Assembly (NCBI GenBank): GCA_012517065.1
Contig: JAAYVR010000227.1
Location: forward strand, 1 to 58,903
Origin: Verrucomicrobiota bacterium
GTDB taxonomy: Bacteria; Verrucomicrobiota; Verrucomicrobiia; Limisphaerales; J093
Length of the DNA stretch: 58,903 nucleotides
Reading direction: 5' to 3'
Made by a program: the position numbers and the translations under genes. Every line of letters starts with the position of its first letter. Position 1 is the first letter of the stretch. The notes under the pieces were generated by a model. That model ran no database searches. It was not told the origin of the DNA and worked only from the letters and a program-made list of their open reading frames with translations. Positions 7,397-56,415 of this stretch are shown in pieces.

Positions 7397-7502
7397 AGTC
7401 CGGGCTTTCAGCCCTTGGATTGTTGAAGGTAATGTCGAGATGGCCCTTCTCGTGGGGTTTCACCCCACGCTGGTATGGACCGCGCCGTTGGCGCTTCGAT
7501 GA
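7397..7502 (+). repeat. dispersed repeat, family B, copy 1
   Basis: About 100 bp beginning at CTTTCAGCCCTTGGA and running through GATGGCCCTTCTCG to GCGCCGTTGGCGCT matches 14930-15030 in order and spacing. It is non-coding and lies between the SDR gene and repeat family A. Confidence 0.6.
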
Positions 7503-7691
7503 CCGACCAATACAACCACCTTGTCCATGGCAGCGTAGTTGATTGTTTCAGCCATGAACGCCTTTCACCGGAGTGAAGCTTTGGCTGTCTTGGGCTGGTC
7601 TGGCGGCGAGATTCCCGGGTCAGTAACGCCTTGCCCAACATTGGCCGCGCAGTCCATCGCTCTGCACTTTGACGTGAAGTGATCGGCGGGT

Positions 7692-43639: not shown

Positions 43640-44010
43640 CAGTCTAAGAGCAAACCCAGACCAGGCCACTTTTCGGCGCAGCTCCGCTTCCGACCGGGCA
43701 TGCGGTGCAATAATACCGGACTGGAACCGCCGCTCTCGGTCCATGGCCCGCCCTGCTCAAATGTGACCGGTCCGCGGCTACCTCGTCTCTTGGATCGAAT
43801 GTGTGGGCAAATGACTTGATTCTGTACATCCTGCCTGCCACCCACGAACATCCGACAAAGACGCAAATAGAGGGACAGGCACGTTGTTTGGGCGTTGTCC
43901 CCTGATTGCGGCGTGGCTCGCAAATTGTCCCTTGTTTCAATCGGCAGCTGCCGAAGTCTGTGCAGGAACCCCGCGCATGCCGATATGGGGACAGGCACGT
44001 TGTTTGTGGT
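43640..44010 (-). repeat. composite repeat, family D, copy 3 (inverted, long form)
   Basis: Minus-strand blocks in order: AACAACGTGCCTGTCCCCAT (44007-43988), CGGCAGCTGCCGATTGAAAC, GGACAACGCCCAAACAACGT, CCCTCTATTTGCGTC, CATTTGCCCACACATTCGAT and GAGAGCGGCGGTTCCAGTCC. Both halves of the family D unit are present. The 43625-44100 gap has no other content. Confidence 0.75.
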
Positions 44011-44110
44011 GTGCGCGGAGCGCCCGCCCTAGCTTACGCGGTTCCTTGAACGGCAGGGCGCGCCATCGTTAACGCGCCGAAGCTGCGACAGTTATTGAAT
44101 TTGGGTCAAA

Positions 44111-49586: not shown

Positions 49587-49787
49587 GCAATCTCCAAACA
49601 GCACTGCTGACCACGGCGCGCCGGGGAGGCCGCGCCTGCCTTGATGAAACCTTCCACAACGTGGGGCGCACGGCCGCTTGCGCGCCGAAGGTAATTCTTT
49701 CAGCCCTAAATGTGACTCCCGCAGGCCCGTGAGCCTTTCCTTAGCCGCAACTCTGCGCCAAGGAAGGGCGGTCGCGCCCCCGCCCCG
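49587..49787. other. start of the 1.06-kb gene-free stretch before the element genes
   Basis: Contains no gene or terminator that I can support. From 49788 the stretch continues with family D copy 4, then the left attachment site and the non-coding left end of the element up to 50646. Confidence 0.4.
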
Positions 49788-50128
49788 AAAACAACGTGCC
49801 TGTCACCATATCGGCATGCGCGGAGTTCCCGCACGTAGTTCAGCAGCCGCGGATTGGAACAAGGGGCGGTCTGCGGGCCATGCTGCAATCTTGATGGCAA
49901 CACCCAAACAATGAGCCTGTCACTCTATTTGAATTCTTTGGATGTCTGCGGATGCAGGCTGCACGTACCGAATCAGTTCGTTAGCCGCCGCATTCGTTTG
50001 CCAATGGACGAAGTGGCCGCGGATCGACTGCGTTTCAGAAGGGCGGACGAGGTGCCGAGATCAGCCATCACCCGTTGCACATTACAACACCGAATGCTCG
50101 GCAAATCTAAAAGACGAAGGCTCTCTGA
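49788..50128 (+). repeat. composite repeat, family D, copy 4 (long form)
   Basis: AACAACGTGCCTGTCACCAT, CATATCGGCATGCG, GCAGCCGCGGATTGGAACAA, AATGAGCCTGTCACTCTATT, then the second half with GTACCGAATCAGTTCGTTAG and AGCCGCCGCATTCGTTTGCC. It ends within a few bases of the left end of the integrated element and so was the original downstream neighbour of tRNA-Gln. Confidence 0.72.
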
Positions 50129-50130
50129 AA

Positions 50131-50165
50131 GGCTTTTTTGGCTGTCCGACCAGGATTCGAACCTG
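50131..50165 (-). other. attL: left attachment site
   Basis: 35 bp identical to 56334-56368, reading GGCTTTTTTGGCTGTCC at the left. It contains the 3' end and most of the T arm of tRNA-Gln only, so it is the displaced copy. Confidence 0.92.
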
Positions 50166-50342: not shown

Positions 50343-50361
50343 TGTGTCAAATTTGTGTCAG
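50343..50361 (+). other. arm-type repeat, left end of element
   Basis: TGTGTCAAATTTGTGTCAG, two direct TGTGTCA boxes 10 bp apart. The identical 19 bp lie near the other end at 56290-56308. Shared short boxes inside both ends are expected of integrase arm-binding sites. The 50166-50646 stretch around it also has two TTTCGTTGC boxes (about 50188 and 50211) and no convincing gene. Confidence 0.6.
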
Positions 50362-50646: not shown

Positions 50647-51123
50647 TCATCCAGAATTGCCTGGCACGCCAGCCCCGCCAGCCGGCTCCTGGGCAGGCTC
50701 CTGGCCAGCCGGCACGGGCAATGCCGGCACGGCGCCTGATTCGACGAGCACAATGTCTTCAAATTTCGCTCGCAAAATCTCACGGACTTCATCCGGCGGA
50801 ATCTCGAACGGCGGCACGCCGACAGCAACGTTGACAGTCGATTCTTGCCCCACACCAAGCTCGCCAAGCAATTGCGCGCACACCTTGATGGCGGCAACAT
50901 CGCCCAGCACAGCCTTATCAATCAAAGCTTGAACGATTGCCTTCGTTTGACCTGGGTTGGCCCGCAAATGACGCAGCAACGCAACCTTCAACGAGACCGC
51001 GCCCTTGCGGCGGCCCGACGGATTGCCGCTAACGCCTTTTCGCCAGAGATACGGCTTCAATTGCTCCGGCACACGGTCCGACATCTGCGTGTTCTTAGTC
51101 TGCAAACCACTTTGGTCACTCAT
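50647..51123 (-). CDS. DUF5681 protein, small-terminase-like
   Basis: 158 aa from the ATG at 51123, chosen because it overlaps the preceding stop (ATGA, 51123-51120); a frame to 51237 would run far into that gene. The N-terminal YLWRKGVSGNPSGRRKG is the DUF5681 signature, seen in phages and mobile elements and often next to terminase genes. A helical middle (LLRHLRANPGQTKAIVQALI, VCAQLLGELG) resembles small terminase oligomerisation helices. The tail is rich in Pro, Ala, Gly and Glu and is probably disordered. A DNA-recognition role in packaging is inferred. No large terminase is present. Last gene before a strong terminator. Confidence 0.68.
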   Translation of the reverse strand: MSDQSGLQTKNTQMSDRVPEQLKPYLWRKGVSGNPSGRRKGAVSLKVALLRHLRANPGQTKAIVQALIDKAVLGDVAAIKVCAQLLGELGVGQESTVNVAVGVPPFEIPPDEVREILRAKFEDIVLVESGAVPALPVPAGQEPAQEPAGGAGVPGNSG

Positions 51124-51647
51124 GGATGTAAGAGCCTCCACCTGGTCAATTCGTCGGCCGCCTGGGCGAGCCACAACCAGCTCGGCAACGTTCGATGCTC
51201 CGGCCCGGCATGCTCGAACAAACGCGCTGCCCGCCATTCAGCCCATTCGCGGCTCTCGAACACTGTCAACCTATCCAGCCCTGGCGGCTTGAACGCCTGG
51301 CCGATTAACTCGGATGCTTCGGCCATCGAAAAGTTTGGCACCGGCCCCGGCGGCAGGTTTACCGGCGGCGTCTTATGCTTTTGAAAGTACGCCAACAGCT
51401 CATCCGCAAACATCTCGACGACCCGGCGCACATCGGCCGGCGGCCGGCAACCGTCGTCGTCAAGCACGATAATATCGGACGGCTCCGCCCAGCCGACGCG
51501 CCAACCTCGCACACGCAACCAACAAACGAGAATAACCGCCTGCCGGCCCGGCTCGGCGGGCAAACTCGCGGCATGAAACGGTCCAAGCAACTTGCCCAGT
51601 AAATCGCGGCGGCGTTTCTCGAAGTTTTTGGTTAGGCTGTCAGTCAT
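51120..51647 (-). CDS. element protein, unknown
   Basis: 175 aa, soluble. It begins with a basic helix (TKNFEKRRRDLLGKLLGPFH), has a Trp-rich strand region (LRVRGWRVGWAEPSDIIVLDDDG) and ends with Trp-rich helices (REWAEWRAARLFEHAG, WLWLAQAADELTRWRLL). I do not recognise a family. It starts right after the box array at 51661-51790 and overlaps the DUF5681 gene by 4 bp, so the two are probably a unit whose promoter or control site lies in the array. Confidence 0.7.
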   Translation of the reverse strand: MTDSLTKNFEKRRRDLLGKLLGPFHAASLPAEPGRQAVILVCWLRVRGWRVGWAEPSDIIVLDDDGCRPPADVRRVVEMFADELLAYFQKHKTPPVNLPPGPVPNFSMAEASELIGQAFKPPGLDRLTVFESREWAEWRAARLFEHAGPEHRTLPSWLWLAQAADELTRWRLLHP

Positions 51648-51660
51648 GACTCACCCCCCC

Positions 51661-51790
51661 CTGGAAAGAATGGCAGGAATAAATCGCGCCCCTGGCAGTT
51701 TGGCTGTGAAAGAATACCCTGTAAGGGTATTCTTTCCAGCCCTGCCAGAACTGCCCTGGAAAGAACTTGGAAAAAATAAATTCTTTCCAG
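51661..51790. promoter_or_regulatory. iteron-like array: candidate origin or operator of the element
   Basis: The 147-bp gap between two genes holds four perfect copies of CTGGAAAGAA: 51661-51670 (+), 51730-51739 (-), 51756-51765 (+) and 51781-51790 (-). A fifth, with one inserted base, lies at 51704-51714 (+). The last four start 26, 26 and 25 bp apart. Two pairs form inverted repeats: GAAAGAATACCC/GGGTATTCTTTC (51708-51736, perfect 12-bp stem, extended by GGCTG/CAGCC) and a pair flanking a 15-bp A-rich centre (51766-51780). It lies directly after the replication-type ATPase gene. An origin bound by that protein or an operator are both possible. Confidence 0.7.
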
Positions 51791-51794
51791 GCTG

Positions 51795-53441
51795 TCATGC
51801 ACGTTTGCCGCCATTGAAACTTTCCCAAACTTTTCTGCCTTCATCTGTGATTGCTTGCCGGATGCCGTGTTCGTCTTCAACCGTCTGAATCCAACCGCTC
51901 GCCCGCATCGCCCTGGCATAATTGCAAAGTGTCCTTCGTACCAGGCCGCACTCATCCGCCCAACTCGACATGGTCAACGGCCCGCGCTCGATCAATGCGC
52001 CCAAAAATTGTCGGCTATCATGTTCTGGCTTACGCCCGCCACCTGGCTTGCGAAGCCGTGTTGGATCAAGCCCGGCTTGGCGTTCAAACAATGGGTAATT
52101 CCACCGTACAACAAATTCCTCGACCGGCGGGAACGATCGCAATGTTGCTTCCACAACAAAATGATCGTCCAGTTCGTGCCGTGTCAACGTCGCAATCCCG
52201 TCCGGCGCCCTTGAAAATACACTGCTTCCAGCAACTCGATCGATTGAAAACTTCTGGCTCGGATCTCCTTTGGCGTAGTGCGCCACGAAGACGACTGCAC
52301 ATTGCCCTTCGACAGCCACCCGCTCAATGCAACGCATGATCAAAGCGACGTCGGTTTGCGTTCGCTCATCCGTGGTCTCGCCGTAAACCCTGTAAACCGG
52401 ATCAATCAGAATCAGCCCGACTCTGAGCCTCCAAACTTCTGACAAAATGTCGGATACAAGCTGATCGATCGACCGCGTGCTACCCCGCAGAAACATTGCA
52501 GACACAGCGCCCGGCCGCATCGTGATGCCCCTGGCTTCGGCTATGGCCGACAACCTACCCGCGAGCATCCAATCGGCCAACTCAAATGACAAATACAGCG
52601 TGTTCACTGGCTGAGGCACGGTAAACCCAAGCCACGGGATGCCGTGTGAAATGCACATCAACATGTCGAGCGCGAACCAGCTTTTAAACGATTTGCTCTG
52701 GCCGCCGATCATCATCACGTCAGCTTGATGCAGCAGTCCATCAACGAGAACCGGCGGCTCGGCCGGCGGATCAGCAAGCAACTCTGACACGTCAACGGCC
52801 GGCATCGAGCTTGGGATTTGTCGCTGAAGGTAACGGCCGGCATCGATCAGCCCGGCCAACACGTGGCCGGCAGGAACATCGCCCAATGCGGCGCGCGCCT
52901 CGTCCATCATGGCGAGCAGACGGCGTTTGACGTGCGCGTCCAGAACATCGCGTAGATGATGCTCAAGCAACTCTCCTTCGCCCAAAGATTTCTCCGGCAA
53001 TGATGACGCCCAGGCCAAAAATCTCGCAGAAATCTCCGGGTTTTTGGTCAGCGCCAACGCCCGTTTTTCGAAGTGCAAGCAAATCGTCGGAAAGTCCAAA
53101 TGCGCGCCTGATTGTGCCAAGTCCTTGATCGTGTCAAACAGAAGTTTGCAACGTTCGTCGTTGAAGGGAACATCGCCGTTCAATCTTGCCAGCGTTCGTG
53201 GGATCAGCGTCGGCTCTTCCAACAAGGCACCGAGTACGACGCACTCAGACATTGAAGCATCCGGCAATTCTGCTGTGCTCGCGGGCAAGCTCGGCGCCGC
53301 CCGGCTTGGCACTCGATCATAGTCGCGCTCGTTCGCGCACAACACCCAGCCGTTGCGCCGAATTTTCCATTGCCACCATTGATTCAGCGCCCAGTCAAAA
53401 ATTCGGAACGCGCCCTCTGAGACTTTTTCAAAAACATTCAT
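51795..53441 (-). CDS. element replication ATPase (DnaB-N plus RepA-like AAA domain)
   Basis: 548 aa from the ATG at 53441; an in-frame TTG lies 9 bp upstream. Residues about 60-190 resemble the DnaB N-terminal helical domain (SECVVLGALLEEPTLIPRTL). Residues about 235-430 form a RecA/RepA-type ATPase with Walker A GGQSKSFKS (Ser-Phe replacing the usual Gly before Lys) and Walker B LILIDPVYR, plus a VVFVAHYAK sensor strand. The C-terminal about 90 residues look like a winged helix (LTMSSWADECGLVRRTLCNYA). Proteins of this layout are replicative helicases or initiators of phages, plasmids and satellites. Starts 74 bp after the previous gene; its stop adjoins the 10-bp box array. Confidence 0.8.
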   Translation of the reverse strand: MNVFEKVSEGAFRIFDWALNQWWQWKIRRNGWVLCANERDYDRVPSRAAPSLPASTAELPDASMSECVVLGALLEEPTLIPRTLARLNGDVPFNDERCKLLFDTIKDLAQSGAHLDFPTICLHFEKRALALTKNPEISARFLAWASSLPEKSLGEGELLEHHLRDVLDAHVKRRLLAMMDEARAALGDVPAGHVLAGLIDAGRYLQRQIPSSMPAVDVSELLADPPAEPPVLVDGLLHQADVMMIGGQSKSFKSWFALDMLMCISHGIPWLGFTVPQPVNTLYLSFELADWMLAGRLSAIAEARGITMRPGAVSAMFLRGSTRSIDQLVSDILSEVWRLRVGLILIDPVYRVYGETTDERTQTDVALIMRCIERVAVEGQCAVVFVAHYAKGDPSQKFSIDRVAGSSVFSRAPDGIATLTRHELDDHFVVEATLRSFPPVEEFVVRWNYPLFERQAGLDPTRLRKPGGGRKPEHDSRQFLGALIERGPLTMSSWADECGLVRRTLCNYARAMRASGWIQTVEDEHGIRQAITDEGRKVWESFNGGKRA

Positions 53442-53524
53442 GCCGATCAAAGTTCATGCCGATGTTCTTTTTTTGTGGAGCGTGCGGACTCGGCATGAAA
53501 CATCCGCACGCCCCGTGTTTCGCC

Positions 53525-54010
53525 TCAGTGCCCGTCCGGCGAAAAAATTCTGCGCAACGGCACCGTCGGCCCGGTCACAACGAACATTTGGCCCTCGTTC
53601 GCGGCAGCCAGGCTCGACGTTGACGTGCCGGCAACCGGATACGTGCCGCTCAAAATCGCATTTGCGAATTGTTCGGCCTGGCTTTTGCTGGGATAAACGT
53701 AGCGTTTTTGTTCACGCCCGACTTTGTGCACAACCATGTACTTGTTCGTTCGAGCATCATGCTCAATACGGACGTCGCCCGGTACAACTTTCTCGTTGCC
53801 GGCGGCTTTGCCCAGCCCTGTTTCGAGCTTTTTGCTGCTGCCCCAGCCGAATCGCGCCGCCAGCGCTTGCGCCAGAAACTTGTATTCGACGGAAGGCACG
53901 ACTACAGCGCCGTTCACGATGATGCGATAAGTGCCGTCCGAGTTTTTGGTGATTCGGATTTCAAGCGGCCCATTATTCAGTGATGGAGTTTTAGTCGATG
54001 TCATTGGCAT
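53525..54010 (-). CDS. element protein, unknown
   Basis: 161 aa, basic, mostly beta: EIRITKNSDGTYRIIVNG, VRIEHDARTNKYMVVHKVG and RYVYPSKSQAEQFANAILSG. The last part suggests a small nucleic-acid-binding domain, but no family is recognised. It overlaps the preceding gene by 20 bp. The ATG at 54004 (MTSTKTPS) is an alternative start. Confidence 0.7.
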   Translation of the reverse strand: MPMTSTKTPSLNNGPLEIRITKNSDGTYRIIVNGAVVVPSVEYKFLAQALAARFGWGSSKKLETGLGKAAGNEKVVPGDVRIEHDARTNKYMVVHKVGREQKRYVYPSKSQAEQFANAILSGTYPVAGTSTSSLAAANEGQMFVVTGPTVPLRRIFSPDGH

Positions 54011-54608
54011 TCCTCAGTTGTCTGTTTTCAGGAATGGTTTGAAAAATTGCGGGCAGCTCGCCGGCCAAAATGCGCTCGATTTGATCGAGCAAACGCTCGG
54101 CGCCCACCGGCGCCTCGACTGGTGGCCGGCATTGGGATTGATGCTGAAATTCTCGCAACGCCTTAACCCTGGGCAATTGCATAATCCAGTCCTCGACTCG
54201 CCAGTCGAGAATCCACGGTTTGATCGACTCGGCCGCCTCGTGCTCGATGCTCGCCACAATCGGATCAAGCGCACGTGAAAATTCGGTCAATGCATCTTCA
54301 AGCTCACTACGCAAATTTTGCCGCAAGCCGGCTCGACGCCGTTCGGCCGCGTGCAGCGCCTCACGCAACACGCCCGGCCGGGCACGCAACTCGACAACGC
54401 GCTTAATCGCGTCCTCGCTGAAATCGGAAATCGGCGTTTGAAGCGCCGCGGTTTCAGCCTGTGCGAGCATCTGTTGGCCGCGCTCGATGTCATGCTCAGC
54501 TTTTGAGTACTCGGACAACGCCTGGCGCAACCGCTCGGCGGCTTGTTGAAGTCTCGCCCTCGATTCGACGGTCAAAGCCGGCCCGCCGGTGTTCGTGGTT
54601 GCGTTCAT
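53991..54608 (-). CDS. element coiled-coil protein, unknown
   Basis: 205 aa from the ATG at 54608, which overlaps the HTH-gene stop (ATGA); a frame to 54695 would overlap far more. Residues about 15-130 are a long charged helix or coiled coil (RARLQQAAERLRQALSEYSK, RREALHAAERRRAGLRQNLR-type pattern). The end is more mixed (WILDWRVEDWIMQLPRVKAL). The family is not recognised. Its place between the HTH gene and replication gene suggests an accessory role in replication or regulation. Confidence 0.7.
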   Translation of the reverse strand: MNATTNTGGPALTVESRARLQQAAERLRQALSEYSKAEHDIERGQQMLAQAETAALQTPISDFSEDAIKRVVELRARPGVLREALHAAERRRAGLRQNLRSELEDALTEFSRALDPIVASIEHEAAESIKPWILDWRVEDWIMQLPRVKALREFQHQSQCRPPVEAPVGAERLLDQIERILAGELPAIFQTIPENRQLRNANDID

Positions 54609-54856
54609 TCGACTTTCCTCCTTTGCGAGTTGGCCAACGTGAGAACAGTGCCGCGCCTTTGGTTGGACAACAACGCGCCGCGAACGGATTCCCAATCGTA
54701 CAAAACGCGCCGTGTTAGTTTGATGAATGGCAGCCTGCCTTCACGCCGCAGCGCATAAAGCGTTCGGCGCGAAATCGGCAGCCTACTTAATAACTCATTT
54801 TCACTCAGTAACCTGTTTTCGCTTGTTGTTTCTGATCTCATAATGTTTGTACTCAT
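54605..54856 (-). CDS. small HTH protein, probable excisionase/regulator
   Basis: 83 aa from the ATG at 54856; Met at 54841 is an alternative. One MerR/Xis-type helix-turn-helix: LLSENELLSRLPISRRTLYA, then LRREGRLPFIKLTRRVLYD and a basic end. Proteins of this size beside a tyrosine integrase usually act as excisionase or as the operon regulator. The ATG is about 10 bp after a candidate -10 box, so the transcript would be almost leaderless. A dyad overlaps the -35 box. Confidence 0.8.
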   Translation of the reverse strand: MSTNIMRSETTSENRLLSENELLSRLPISRRTLYALRREGRLPFIKLTRRVLYDWESVRGALLSNQRRGTVLTLANSQRRKVE

Positions 54857-54865
54857 AACAGGCAC

Positions 54866-54898
54866 TTTATCACGCAACTTGTTACTTGGCGTCAAGTA
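54866..54898 (-). promoter_or_regulatory. candidate promoter and operator of the element operon
   Basis: Minus-strand TTGACG (54895-54890) and GATAAA (54871-54866) with an 18-bp spacer. The perfect dyad TACTTG-GCGT-CAAGTA (54883-54898, plus strand) covers the -35 box, as a repressor site would. Confidence 0.45.
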
Positions 54899-54919
54899 CC
54901 TCAGAAATAGCAACAATGA

Positions 54920-54955
54920 GAAAACCCGCGTCGTTATTGAACGAAACGCGGGTTT
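54920..54955 (-). terminator. terminator downstream of the element integrase
   Basis: AAAACCCGCGT (54920-54930) and ACGCGGGTTTT (54945-54955) form a perfect 11-bp stem with T/A runs on both strands. On the minus strand it ends integrase transcription 25 bp after the stop and separates it from the HTH-led operon. Confidence 0.8.
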
Positions 54956-54980
54956 TGCCCAAAGCGTTTTGTGTTTTTGG

Positions 54981-56315
54981 TCAGTGCCCGGCGGTGATGG
55001 AAACAACGTTTTGCGGCCGTTGCGGCACGACGTCGAACCATAGCCGCGCCTCACTTTCGCTGACAAGCCCTCGGTAATTCGCGTGCAACATCGTCGGATC
55101 GTGGCCGGCCTGGCTTGCGGTCAAATTTTCGTCGTTCGTCAGCGCAAAATAGTGCGAAACCCAACCGTGCCGAAGACCGTTTCGACGATACGGTATGCCC
55201 AGCGACGTTCGCACTTTGTTGAATCTATAAAGATAAACTCCCCTTGTGTCCGTCCACACCCGCCCCGTTCGGCCTCGATACGGTTCAAGCCAGGCAGCCA
55301 GGGTTGGACACATCTTGACCAGCCGTCGGCTCCGAAGCTTGGCGATTTCGGCCCCGATTTCGATGTGCCCCTCGACGCTGAACACATTCGCCCAGCTCAT
55401 GCGAAGCGCTTCTTCAAGCCGCACGCCTCCGAATGCCTGCAACGCGATTATCGGCACAAGTTCAGCCGGCGCAGCATCAAGCAAGGCTCGCAGTTCGTTC
55501 ACACGATAAAAATCAACTCTTGCTCGAACAACCGGTTCTTTTTTCAACGCATCGCAATTGACCAGCTTGCTCGCTTGCGTCGGCTCGATGTAATCGCGCA
55601 ACGTACACCAACGCAAAAACTGTTTGATTGTTGCCCGCCTATCGTTTCGACTCTTGGCAGCCAGCCGGCCGAACTTCGACATGTGCAAGTCCAGCCCCTC
55701 GACACTCAAATGCCCGACCTGGCAATTCTGAAACGTATTGCAAAGCTCGATCAGATAATCTTCGACGATATCGACGTAACGCTCGCACAATGCCGGCCGG
55801 CCGCCGTTGTTCGACACGCTCTTGGCTCGTTGAAGCGCGACAAACGACTTCACGGCTTCATCAAGCCGCATCGGTTTGAGCTTGGCCATGACGCGCAGAT
55901 ACTGTTTCACGACATTCACCACCGACTCGCCATCACCAAGCAGCTTGGCGGCCTCGACGTATTCGCTCACGACTTGCGAGGCCGACATCTTCCTGCCCGT
56001 TGCCGCGTGAAGCTCTGCCAGCAAATCGCGAATTCCGAGCATGTCAGTCACTTCACGCGGCGTCAGCGCCCTCGATTCGGCGCCCCGGCACAGTTCGTCC
56101 AACACGGTTCTGGCGGCGTGGAGCGCATCCGAATACTTCTTGAACGACTCGACAACCCGTTTGCCCGCGGCGTAAAAGGCAACTCGATAACTAGGGTAGG
56201 CGGCTGTTCGGCCGTAGATGCGCACTTCGGCCCGCCGCTTGCGCAGTTTGACCGGGAATTTCATCTTGCCAGTCTTTTCGTCGGGAATCTGTGTCAAATT
56301 TGTGTCAGGAACCAC
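54981..56315 (-). CDS. tyrosine-type site-specific integrase of the element
   Basis: 444 aa from a GTG at 56315 with a GGGGGG ribosome-binding stretch close upstream. An ATG at 56264 (MKFPVKLRKRRAEVRIYG) is a good alternative and would leave the 19-bp arm repeat outside the gene. An N-terminal arm-binding-like domain (about 18-75) precedes a SAM-like core-binding domain (about 155-255) and the catalytic domain. Catalytic residues seen: Arg in FGGVRLEEAL, Arg382-His383 in RNGLRHGW (the usual first His is Asn379), His405 in AGHDP and Tyr414 in HANYRG. It acts on the tRNA-Gln 3' end, 27 bp from its own 5' end. Transcribed separately from the rest of the element. Confidence 0.92.
   Translation of the reverse strand: MVPDTNLTQIPDEKTGKMKFPVKLRKRRAEVRIYGRTAAYPSYRVAFYAAGKRVVESFKKYSDALHAARTVLDELCRGAESRALTPREVTDMLGIRDLLAELHAATGRKMSASQVVSEYVEAAKLLGDGESVVNVVKQYLRVMAKLKPMRLDEAVKSFVALQRAKSVSNNGGRPALCERYVDIVEDYLIELCNTFQNCQVGHLSVEGLDLHMSKFGRLAAKSRNDRRATIKQFLRWCTLRDYIEPTQASKLVNCDALKKEPVVRARVDFYRVNELRALLDAAPAELVPIIALQAFGGVRLEEALRMSWANVFSVEGHIEIGAEIAKLRSRRLVKMCPTLAAWLEPYRGRTGRVWTDTRGVYLYRFNKVRTSLGIPYRRNGLRHGWVSHYFALTNDENLTASQAGHDPTMLHANYRGLVSESEARLWFDVVPQRPQNVVSITAGH
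56290..56308 (+). other. arm-type repeat, right end of element
   Basis: Same 19 bp as 50343-50361, in the same orientation, 25 bp inside the right attachment core and overlapping the first codons of the long form of the integrase. Confidence 0.6.
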
Positions 56316-56333: not shown

Positions 56334-56368
56334 GGCTTTTTTGGCTGTCCGACCAGGATTCGAACCTG
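56334..56368 (-). other. attR: right attachment site within tRNA-Gln
   Basis: 35 bp identical to 50131-50165. It covers the 3' part of the intact tRNA-Gln (acceptor 3' strand and T arm) plus 8 bp beyond the CCA end. Confidence 0.92.
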
Positions 56369-56415
56369 GACTAAAGGCTCCAAAGACCTCTGTGCTACCG
56401 TTACACCATCGGACA
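56342..56415 (-). tRNA. tRNA-Gln (anticodon TTG)
   Basis: On the minus strand the gene begins TGTCCGA and ends TCGGACAGCCA, giving the U1-A72 pair typical of tRNA-Gln, with CCA encoded. The anticodon loop CTTTGGA gives TTG. The T arm is CCAGG TTCGAAT CCTGG. Its 3' end is the integration target of the 6.2-kb element, which keeps the gene intact. Confidence 0.95.

Follow-up and report, generated by a model that had tools for sequence, protein, structure and literature searches.

Organization of the integrative element

The window, meaning the whole 58,903-nucleotide stretch of Verrucomicrobiota DNA analysed here, contains a 6.2-kb integrative element inserted at a tRNA-Gln gene and bounded by 35-bp attachment repeats. 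One repeat (56334–56368) lies over the 3' end of the tRNA-Gln gene (56342–56415, from the tRNA call), and a direct repeat identical to it at 35 of 35 positions (50131–50165) forms the far end of the element. The integrase gene is located beside the tRNA 3' end, and the element is absent at this locus from a genome of the same genus (G001) in which homology to the window starts at the tRNA, as expected of an integrative element that uses a tRNA site. All of the element's genes are read in one direction, from the reverse strand: the integrase (54981–56315; phrog_1, 1.1e-18), an HTH_17/excisionase-like gene identified by family search (54605–55066), two genes of unknown function without a family (a 234-aa open frame at 53991–54695, and one of 161 aa at 53525–54010), rep (51795–53441), the box array, a further gene without a family (175 aa; 51120–51647), and a gene coding for a DUF5681 protein (50647–51237; Pfam, 2.9e-10), which is the last of the operon. 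Neither capsid nor tail genes were recognised within the 6.2-kb element, and this absence fits a satellite or another small mobile element, a label that we infer.

Additional repeats are present near the element ends. A perfect 19-bp direct repeat, TGTGTCAAATTTGTGTCAG, is located close to both of them (50343–50361 and 56290–56308), and each copy has an internal TGTGTCA repeat; these are candidate arm sites for the integrase or an excisionase. A repeat of about 240 bp lies beside the left attachment repeat (49785–50035) and again at 43734–44030, with at least 30 copies in the genome at 72–84% identity, and many in a same-genus genome.

Rep is a DnaB-like helicase with a predicted winged helix

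Rep, the presumed initiator helicase, has a DnaB-type N-terminal domain, a RecA-fold core (AAA_25, RepA/DnaB), and a C-terminal winged helix. Pfam matches are to AAA_25 (4.4e-25) and DnaB (3.2e-6), profile comparisons match REPA 1g8y (3.9e-9) and DnaB N-terminal domains, and the fold of the structure model (mean pLDDT 82.8) matches DnaB structures. The winged helix is predicted at residues 476–544 (51810–52016, reverse strand), where the model has the order H-H-H-E-E-H with a pLDDT of 92–95 and there are weak matches to HTH profiles. Its recognition helix corresponds to residues 502–514 (51900–51938, reverse strand) and includes R503 and N507 at the two positions that covary with box sequence in relatives (see below).

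The start of rep has repeats of its own. The sequence TCGGCATGAA is present three times at 53437–53499, as a tandem pair with a 16-bp step across the start and as one inverted copy 28 bp upstream, accompanied by a GTGCGGA/TCCGCAC palindrome, and this may be an autoregulatory site.

A palindromic box array fills the gap behind rep

Between the rep stop codon and the following gene of the operon is a 147-bp gap (51648–51794), which a preliminary description singled out as the operon's only sizeable one; this is approximately right. The whole gap constitutes the putative replication origin or initiator-binding array. Four perfect copies of CTGGAAAGAA and one variant with a single insertion are present exactly as first reported: box 1 (51661–51670, forward), the variant box 2, CTGTGAAAGAA, in which a single extra T gives CTG(T)GAAAGAA (51704–51714, forward), box 3 (51730–51739, reverse), box 4 (51756–51765, forward), and box 5 (51781–51790, reverse). 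The start-to-start steps of 26, 26, and 25 bp among the last four boxes are likewise borne out, and the step from box 1 to box 2 is 43 bp. Orientation alternates among the last four boxes as had been proposed, but not over the whole array (+ + − + −).

Four of the five boxes form the arms of two strong palindromes, in agreement with the two inverted repeats noted earlier. The first (51708–51720/51724–51736, 13/13) includes boxes 2 and 3 and is lengthened outward by GGCTG/CAGCC and CTGGCAG/CTGCCAG into a hairpin of about 57 nt (51692–51748), with CCCTTACAGGG as its core on the rep strand. The second (51755–51768/51778–51791, 13/14) includes boxes 4 and 5 around an A/T-rich 9-nt loop. The A-rich centre attributed to the array is confined to the loop and flank of this second palindrome (51755–51791), and the core of the array is CCCTTACAGGG. 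The first palindrome encountered past the rep stop begins 3 bp beyond it. Repeat searches and folding agree on both palindromes, and the array region folds much more stably than shuffled sequence on the transcribed strand (z = −8.9 as RNA, −8.0 as DNA).

This clustering is unusual. Nowhere else in the window do four copies of one 10-mer fall within 150 bp, and only 4 of 2000 dinucleotide shuffles of the array reached four copies. Across the 5.26-Mb genome CTGGAAAGAA occurs 18 times, with four copies in the array and one copy on each of 14 other contigs, so that the boxes are rare and unclustered elsewhere rather than common throughout the chromosome. A search of the same genome with the 141-bp array found no second copy.

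Relatives keep the layout with element-specific boxes

Single-protein scans of viral contigs and genome contigs revealed no close relatives, and we therefore collected relatives with a profile, from viral contigs, species genomes, and whole genomes within the same order, and oriented the loci. They span Verrucomicrobiota, Firmicutes, other phyla, and phage contigs. Within the 220 bp directly 3' of rep we observed a mean of 21.9 repeat pairs, compared to 4.0 expected, over 183 loci. Repeat arrays at this position are significant (p<=1/60) in 69% of the 183 loci, a set that includes some mutually close relatives, compared to 8% upstream of rep and 9% in the other controls. About 31% of the loci are not significant by this simple test; in some of them the array is located within the 3' end of rep, and others have no array. 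Folding shows the same positional preference: among 107 non-redundant loci, z is below −3 in 60% 3' of rep, in 7% upstream, and in 1% inside the gene.

The letters of the boxes are unlike in nearly every element (AGTCTCA, GTGTCA, AGTCCCA, GTGCCA, CTGCCA, ACTGACA, GGACA, and others). What recurs among the relatives is a palindromic core, of either the CCCTTTAGGG or the CCTTATATATAAGG type, and CCT[AT]nAGG occurs in 21 of the 107 loci, compared to 4 expected. The arrangement in relatives is box-box-ATCCCTTTAAA-box'; in many the box copies are direct and unpaired, and in some the array starts within the last codons of rep. At one locus (L149), a single case given as illustration only, rep ends before the winged helix and the array is absent. 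The preliminary description had considered that the boxes might be missing from related elements that retain the genes; what we observe is that the layout is kept and that its letters are specific to each element.

Recognition-helix residues covary with box positions

Box sequences can be aligned among 18 distinct elements (16 different boxes), a subgroup whose helicase cores are closely similar, because each shows box-box-CATCCC...-box' at the rep stop. Residue 7 of the recognition helix is Arg in all 12 elements with C at box position 5, and Asn, Thr, or Val in all 6 with A, an 18/18 agreement that does not amount to 18 independent events, since the subgroup sequences are related, and for which the boxes of L016 and L053 were placed in register by hand against the core. 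This is by far the strongest of 1008 pairings of a variable protein column with a box position (z = 9.7). One helical turn away, residue 3 is Arg in exactly the six elements with GC at box positions 3–4, again an 18/18 correspondence. Columns of the helicase core have no comparable association with box positions in these 18 elements. Such covariation is the pattern that direct base reading by contact residues of a recognition helix would give.

The pattern appears to generalise in part. At loci outside the subgroup, a small sample in which boxes were picked by repeat count, residue 3 is Arg with box G3 in 7 of 8 cases (p = 0.04) and Ala or Ser with T4 in 6 of 7 (p = 0.01). Over all families the overall correlation between box similarity and winged-helix similarity is significant but weak (Mantel-type, partial r = 0.075, p = 0.011), and most of the signal is confined to the subgroup with alignable boxes. 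For the window itself, the box has slight similarity to those of the nearest winged-helix neighbours, and applying the residue code to R503, N507, and CTGGAAAGAA gives G3 and A5 as expected, with G in place of C at position 4. The code may fit the window box, and we regard this as suggestive only, as the alignment of distant boxes is loosely constrained.

A further group of Reps has Asp at the same recognition-helix position (L042, L043, L063, L050, L172, L015, and L168), and their boxes contain CCG, mostly following TT or T. The window, with Asn, has TTCCA instead, which would fit the idea of residue-base correspondence.

Comparison with known replication systems

In SaPI Rep and SCCmec Cch2 a C-terminal domain recognises iterons directly downstream of the protein's own gene or operon (PMC7581432), and in the PICIs of Gram-negative bacteria rep and ori are sufficient for plasmid maintenance and rep-ori segments replicate autonomously (PMC6092414). 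This layout was earlier stated to be unique to PICIs among bacterial replicons. The window resembles SaPIs and PICIs in being an integrative element with an array immediately 3' of its initiator helicase gene (PMC6092414, PMC7581432), in having short element-specific iterons (here four exact and one variant 10-mers, with other boxes in relatives), and probably in having a C-terminal DNA-binding domain on the helicase, as suggested by the modelled winged helix here and by the covariation in relatives. It differs in that its boxes are 10-bp arms of palindromes, there is no evidence of phage induction here, and Rep has the RecA-type DnaB/RepA fold and is not of the SaPI Rep/D5-like AAA+ type; because the initiator belongs to this other helicase class, we do not classify the array as a PICI-type origin. 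Cch2 is similarly a self-recognising helicase, and its putative origin likewise has hairpin-capable inverted repeats beside direct repeats (PMC7581432). However, Cch2 is a D5/MCM-like helicase, and its inverted repeats are dispensable for binding, whereas in the window the boxes themselves constitute the arms.

The helicase fold of Rep is that of RSF1010-type RepA, as the REPA match indicates, and of replicative DnaB, with which Rep also shares a DnaB-type N-terminal domain. In RSF1010 the iterons are bound by a separate protein, RepC, whereas here the box reader is putatively fused to the helicase; DnaB, in contrast, needs a loader and is without such a DNA-reading domain.

Homologous helicases are encoded by the streptococcal phage Javan629 and the Flavonifractor phage Castelnaud, and in both of these boxes and palindromes are positioned right behind the repA/primase gene, with arrays containing GGACA (14 copies) or GGGCA (7 copies). 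They differ from the window element in being full phages of 37–40 kb, in the annotation of the gene as a replicative helicase or primase, and in having boxes unlike those of the window. No origin is annotated in the stretches of the two phages that we examined.

The array as a probable origin read by its own helicase

We consider it quite probable that the element's own initiator helicase binds the boxes and that these form the element's origin of replication, and the covariation between protein helix and box suggests recognition of the boxes by the helicase as the start of element copying. The best reading is an iteron-type origin with PICI-like workings but another class of helicase. The initial proposal was a site of protein binding, for instance an iteron origin. 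Its binding-site part is strongly supported by the conserved position, the element-specific letters, and the covariation, which together make a good case for box recognition in relatives; origin function, beyond binding by Rep, would follow by analogy with the SaPI, PICI, and SCCmec precedents, and the proposal as a whole is supported. For the window we infer binding by Rep, melting, helicase loading, origin firing, and replication of the element after excision. The C-terminal winged helix of Rep would bind the 10-bp boxes, the paired and inverted boxes would load Rep at both sides of the palindromic core, the core would open or extrude, and the DnaB-type ring of Rep would begin unwinding, with host or element enzymes priming synthesis. 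Since every element spells its boxes in its own way, and the spelling would change along with the recognition helix, each element would fire only its own origin.

An alternative explanation is that the palindromes act as RNA hairpins that uncouple the expression of rep from that of the gene after it, make the rep transcript more stable at its 3' end, or cause transcriptional attenuation. The hairpins do lie between two co-directional genes, the fold of the transcribed strand is very strong, and most relatives have an excess of structure downstream of rep. We nevertheless think this unlikely, as many relatives have direct unpaired boxes or arrays that start in the coding region, and pairing leaves unexplained why the recognition helix tracks single box bases. 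Furthermore, the gap contains neither a T tract nor a terminator call, the best call of the element being behind its last gene (50571–50538), and an Rfam search returned tRNA only, with no match for the array.

It is also conceivable, although quite improbable, that Rep binds the boxes as an operator-like regulatory, partition, or incompatibility site and that replication begins elsewhere in the element. Covariation speaks for recognition rather than its consequence, the TCGGCATGAA repeats at the rep start could themselves be an operator or an origin, and GC skew shows no change over the length of the arrays (60 loci, p = 0.96). However, the array is located 3' of rep and not at a promoter, with the sole promoter-like match of the element at 55037–55066, the presumed box reader is part of a replicative helicase, and the layout agrees with the tested origins of PICIs and the putative one of SCCmec.

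Chance insertion of a REP- or MITE-like palindromic sequence behind rep is very improbable: the array is palindromic, the 9-bp direct repeat AGGCTGTCA is present at 51634 and 51789, and the genome does hold the multi-copy 240-bp repeat, but the array is single-copy in 5.26 Mb and relatives from different phyla have arrays of other letters at this position, a conservation of position that also rules out AGGCTGTCA as a target duplication.

Returning to an origin read by its own helicase, we found no published account of the helicase–winged-helix family or its origin in the literature searched, an incomplete set that yielded only SaPI, SCCmec, and PICI work; single cases have possibly been described. 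On balance we favour the view that this is a large family, undescribed in that literature, of phage and satellite DnaB-type ring initiators with an origin-reading winged helix and with the origin at the 3' end of their own gene, and that the initiator spreads and diverges together with its origin as a single cassette, following a residue-to-base code (Arg with C, Asn with A, and Arg with GC). A PICI-like layout with another class of helicase in several phyla would point either to convergence on a single-piece cassette of initiator and origin or to its exchange as a module. With the covarying residues, origin specificity becomes a direct question, in which one helix residue is changed and the bound box predicted, and the layout provides a rule for locating unannotated origins in many phages.

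A second hairpin downstream of the array in relatives

Many relatives have a second, longer hairpin after the box array (L016, L017, L053–L062 behind rep, L181–L211, and L224 at 7470–7540), with a sequence that is conserved within each host group, such as GGCAG..CAACCCTCCTTGGGTCGGGTTG..CTGCC. This hairpin, possibly a priming site, is not present as a separate copy in the window. In L016 and L053–L062 the gene following the array begins, by eye, like a small terminase-type HTH protein, and in place of this the window has its DUF5681 gene two genes downstream.
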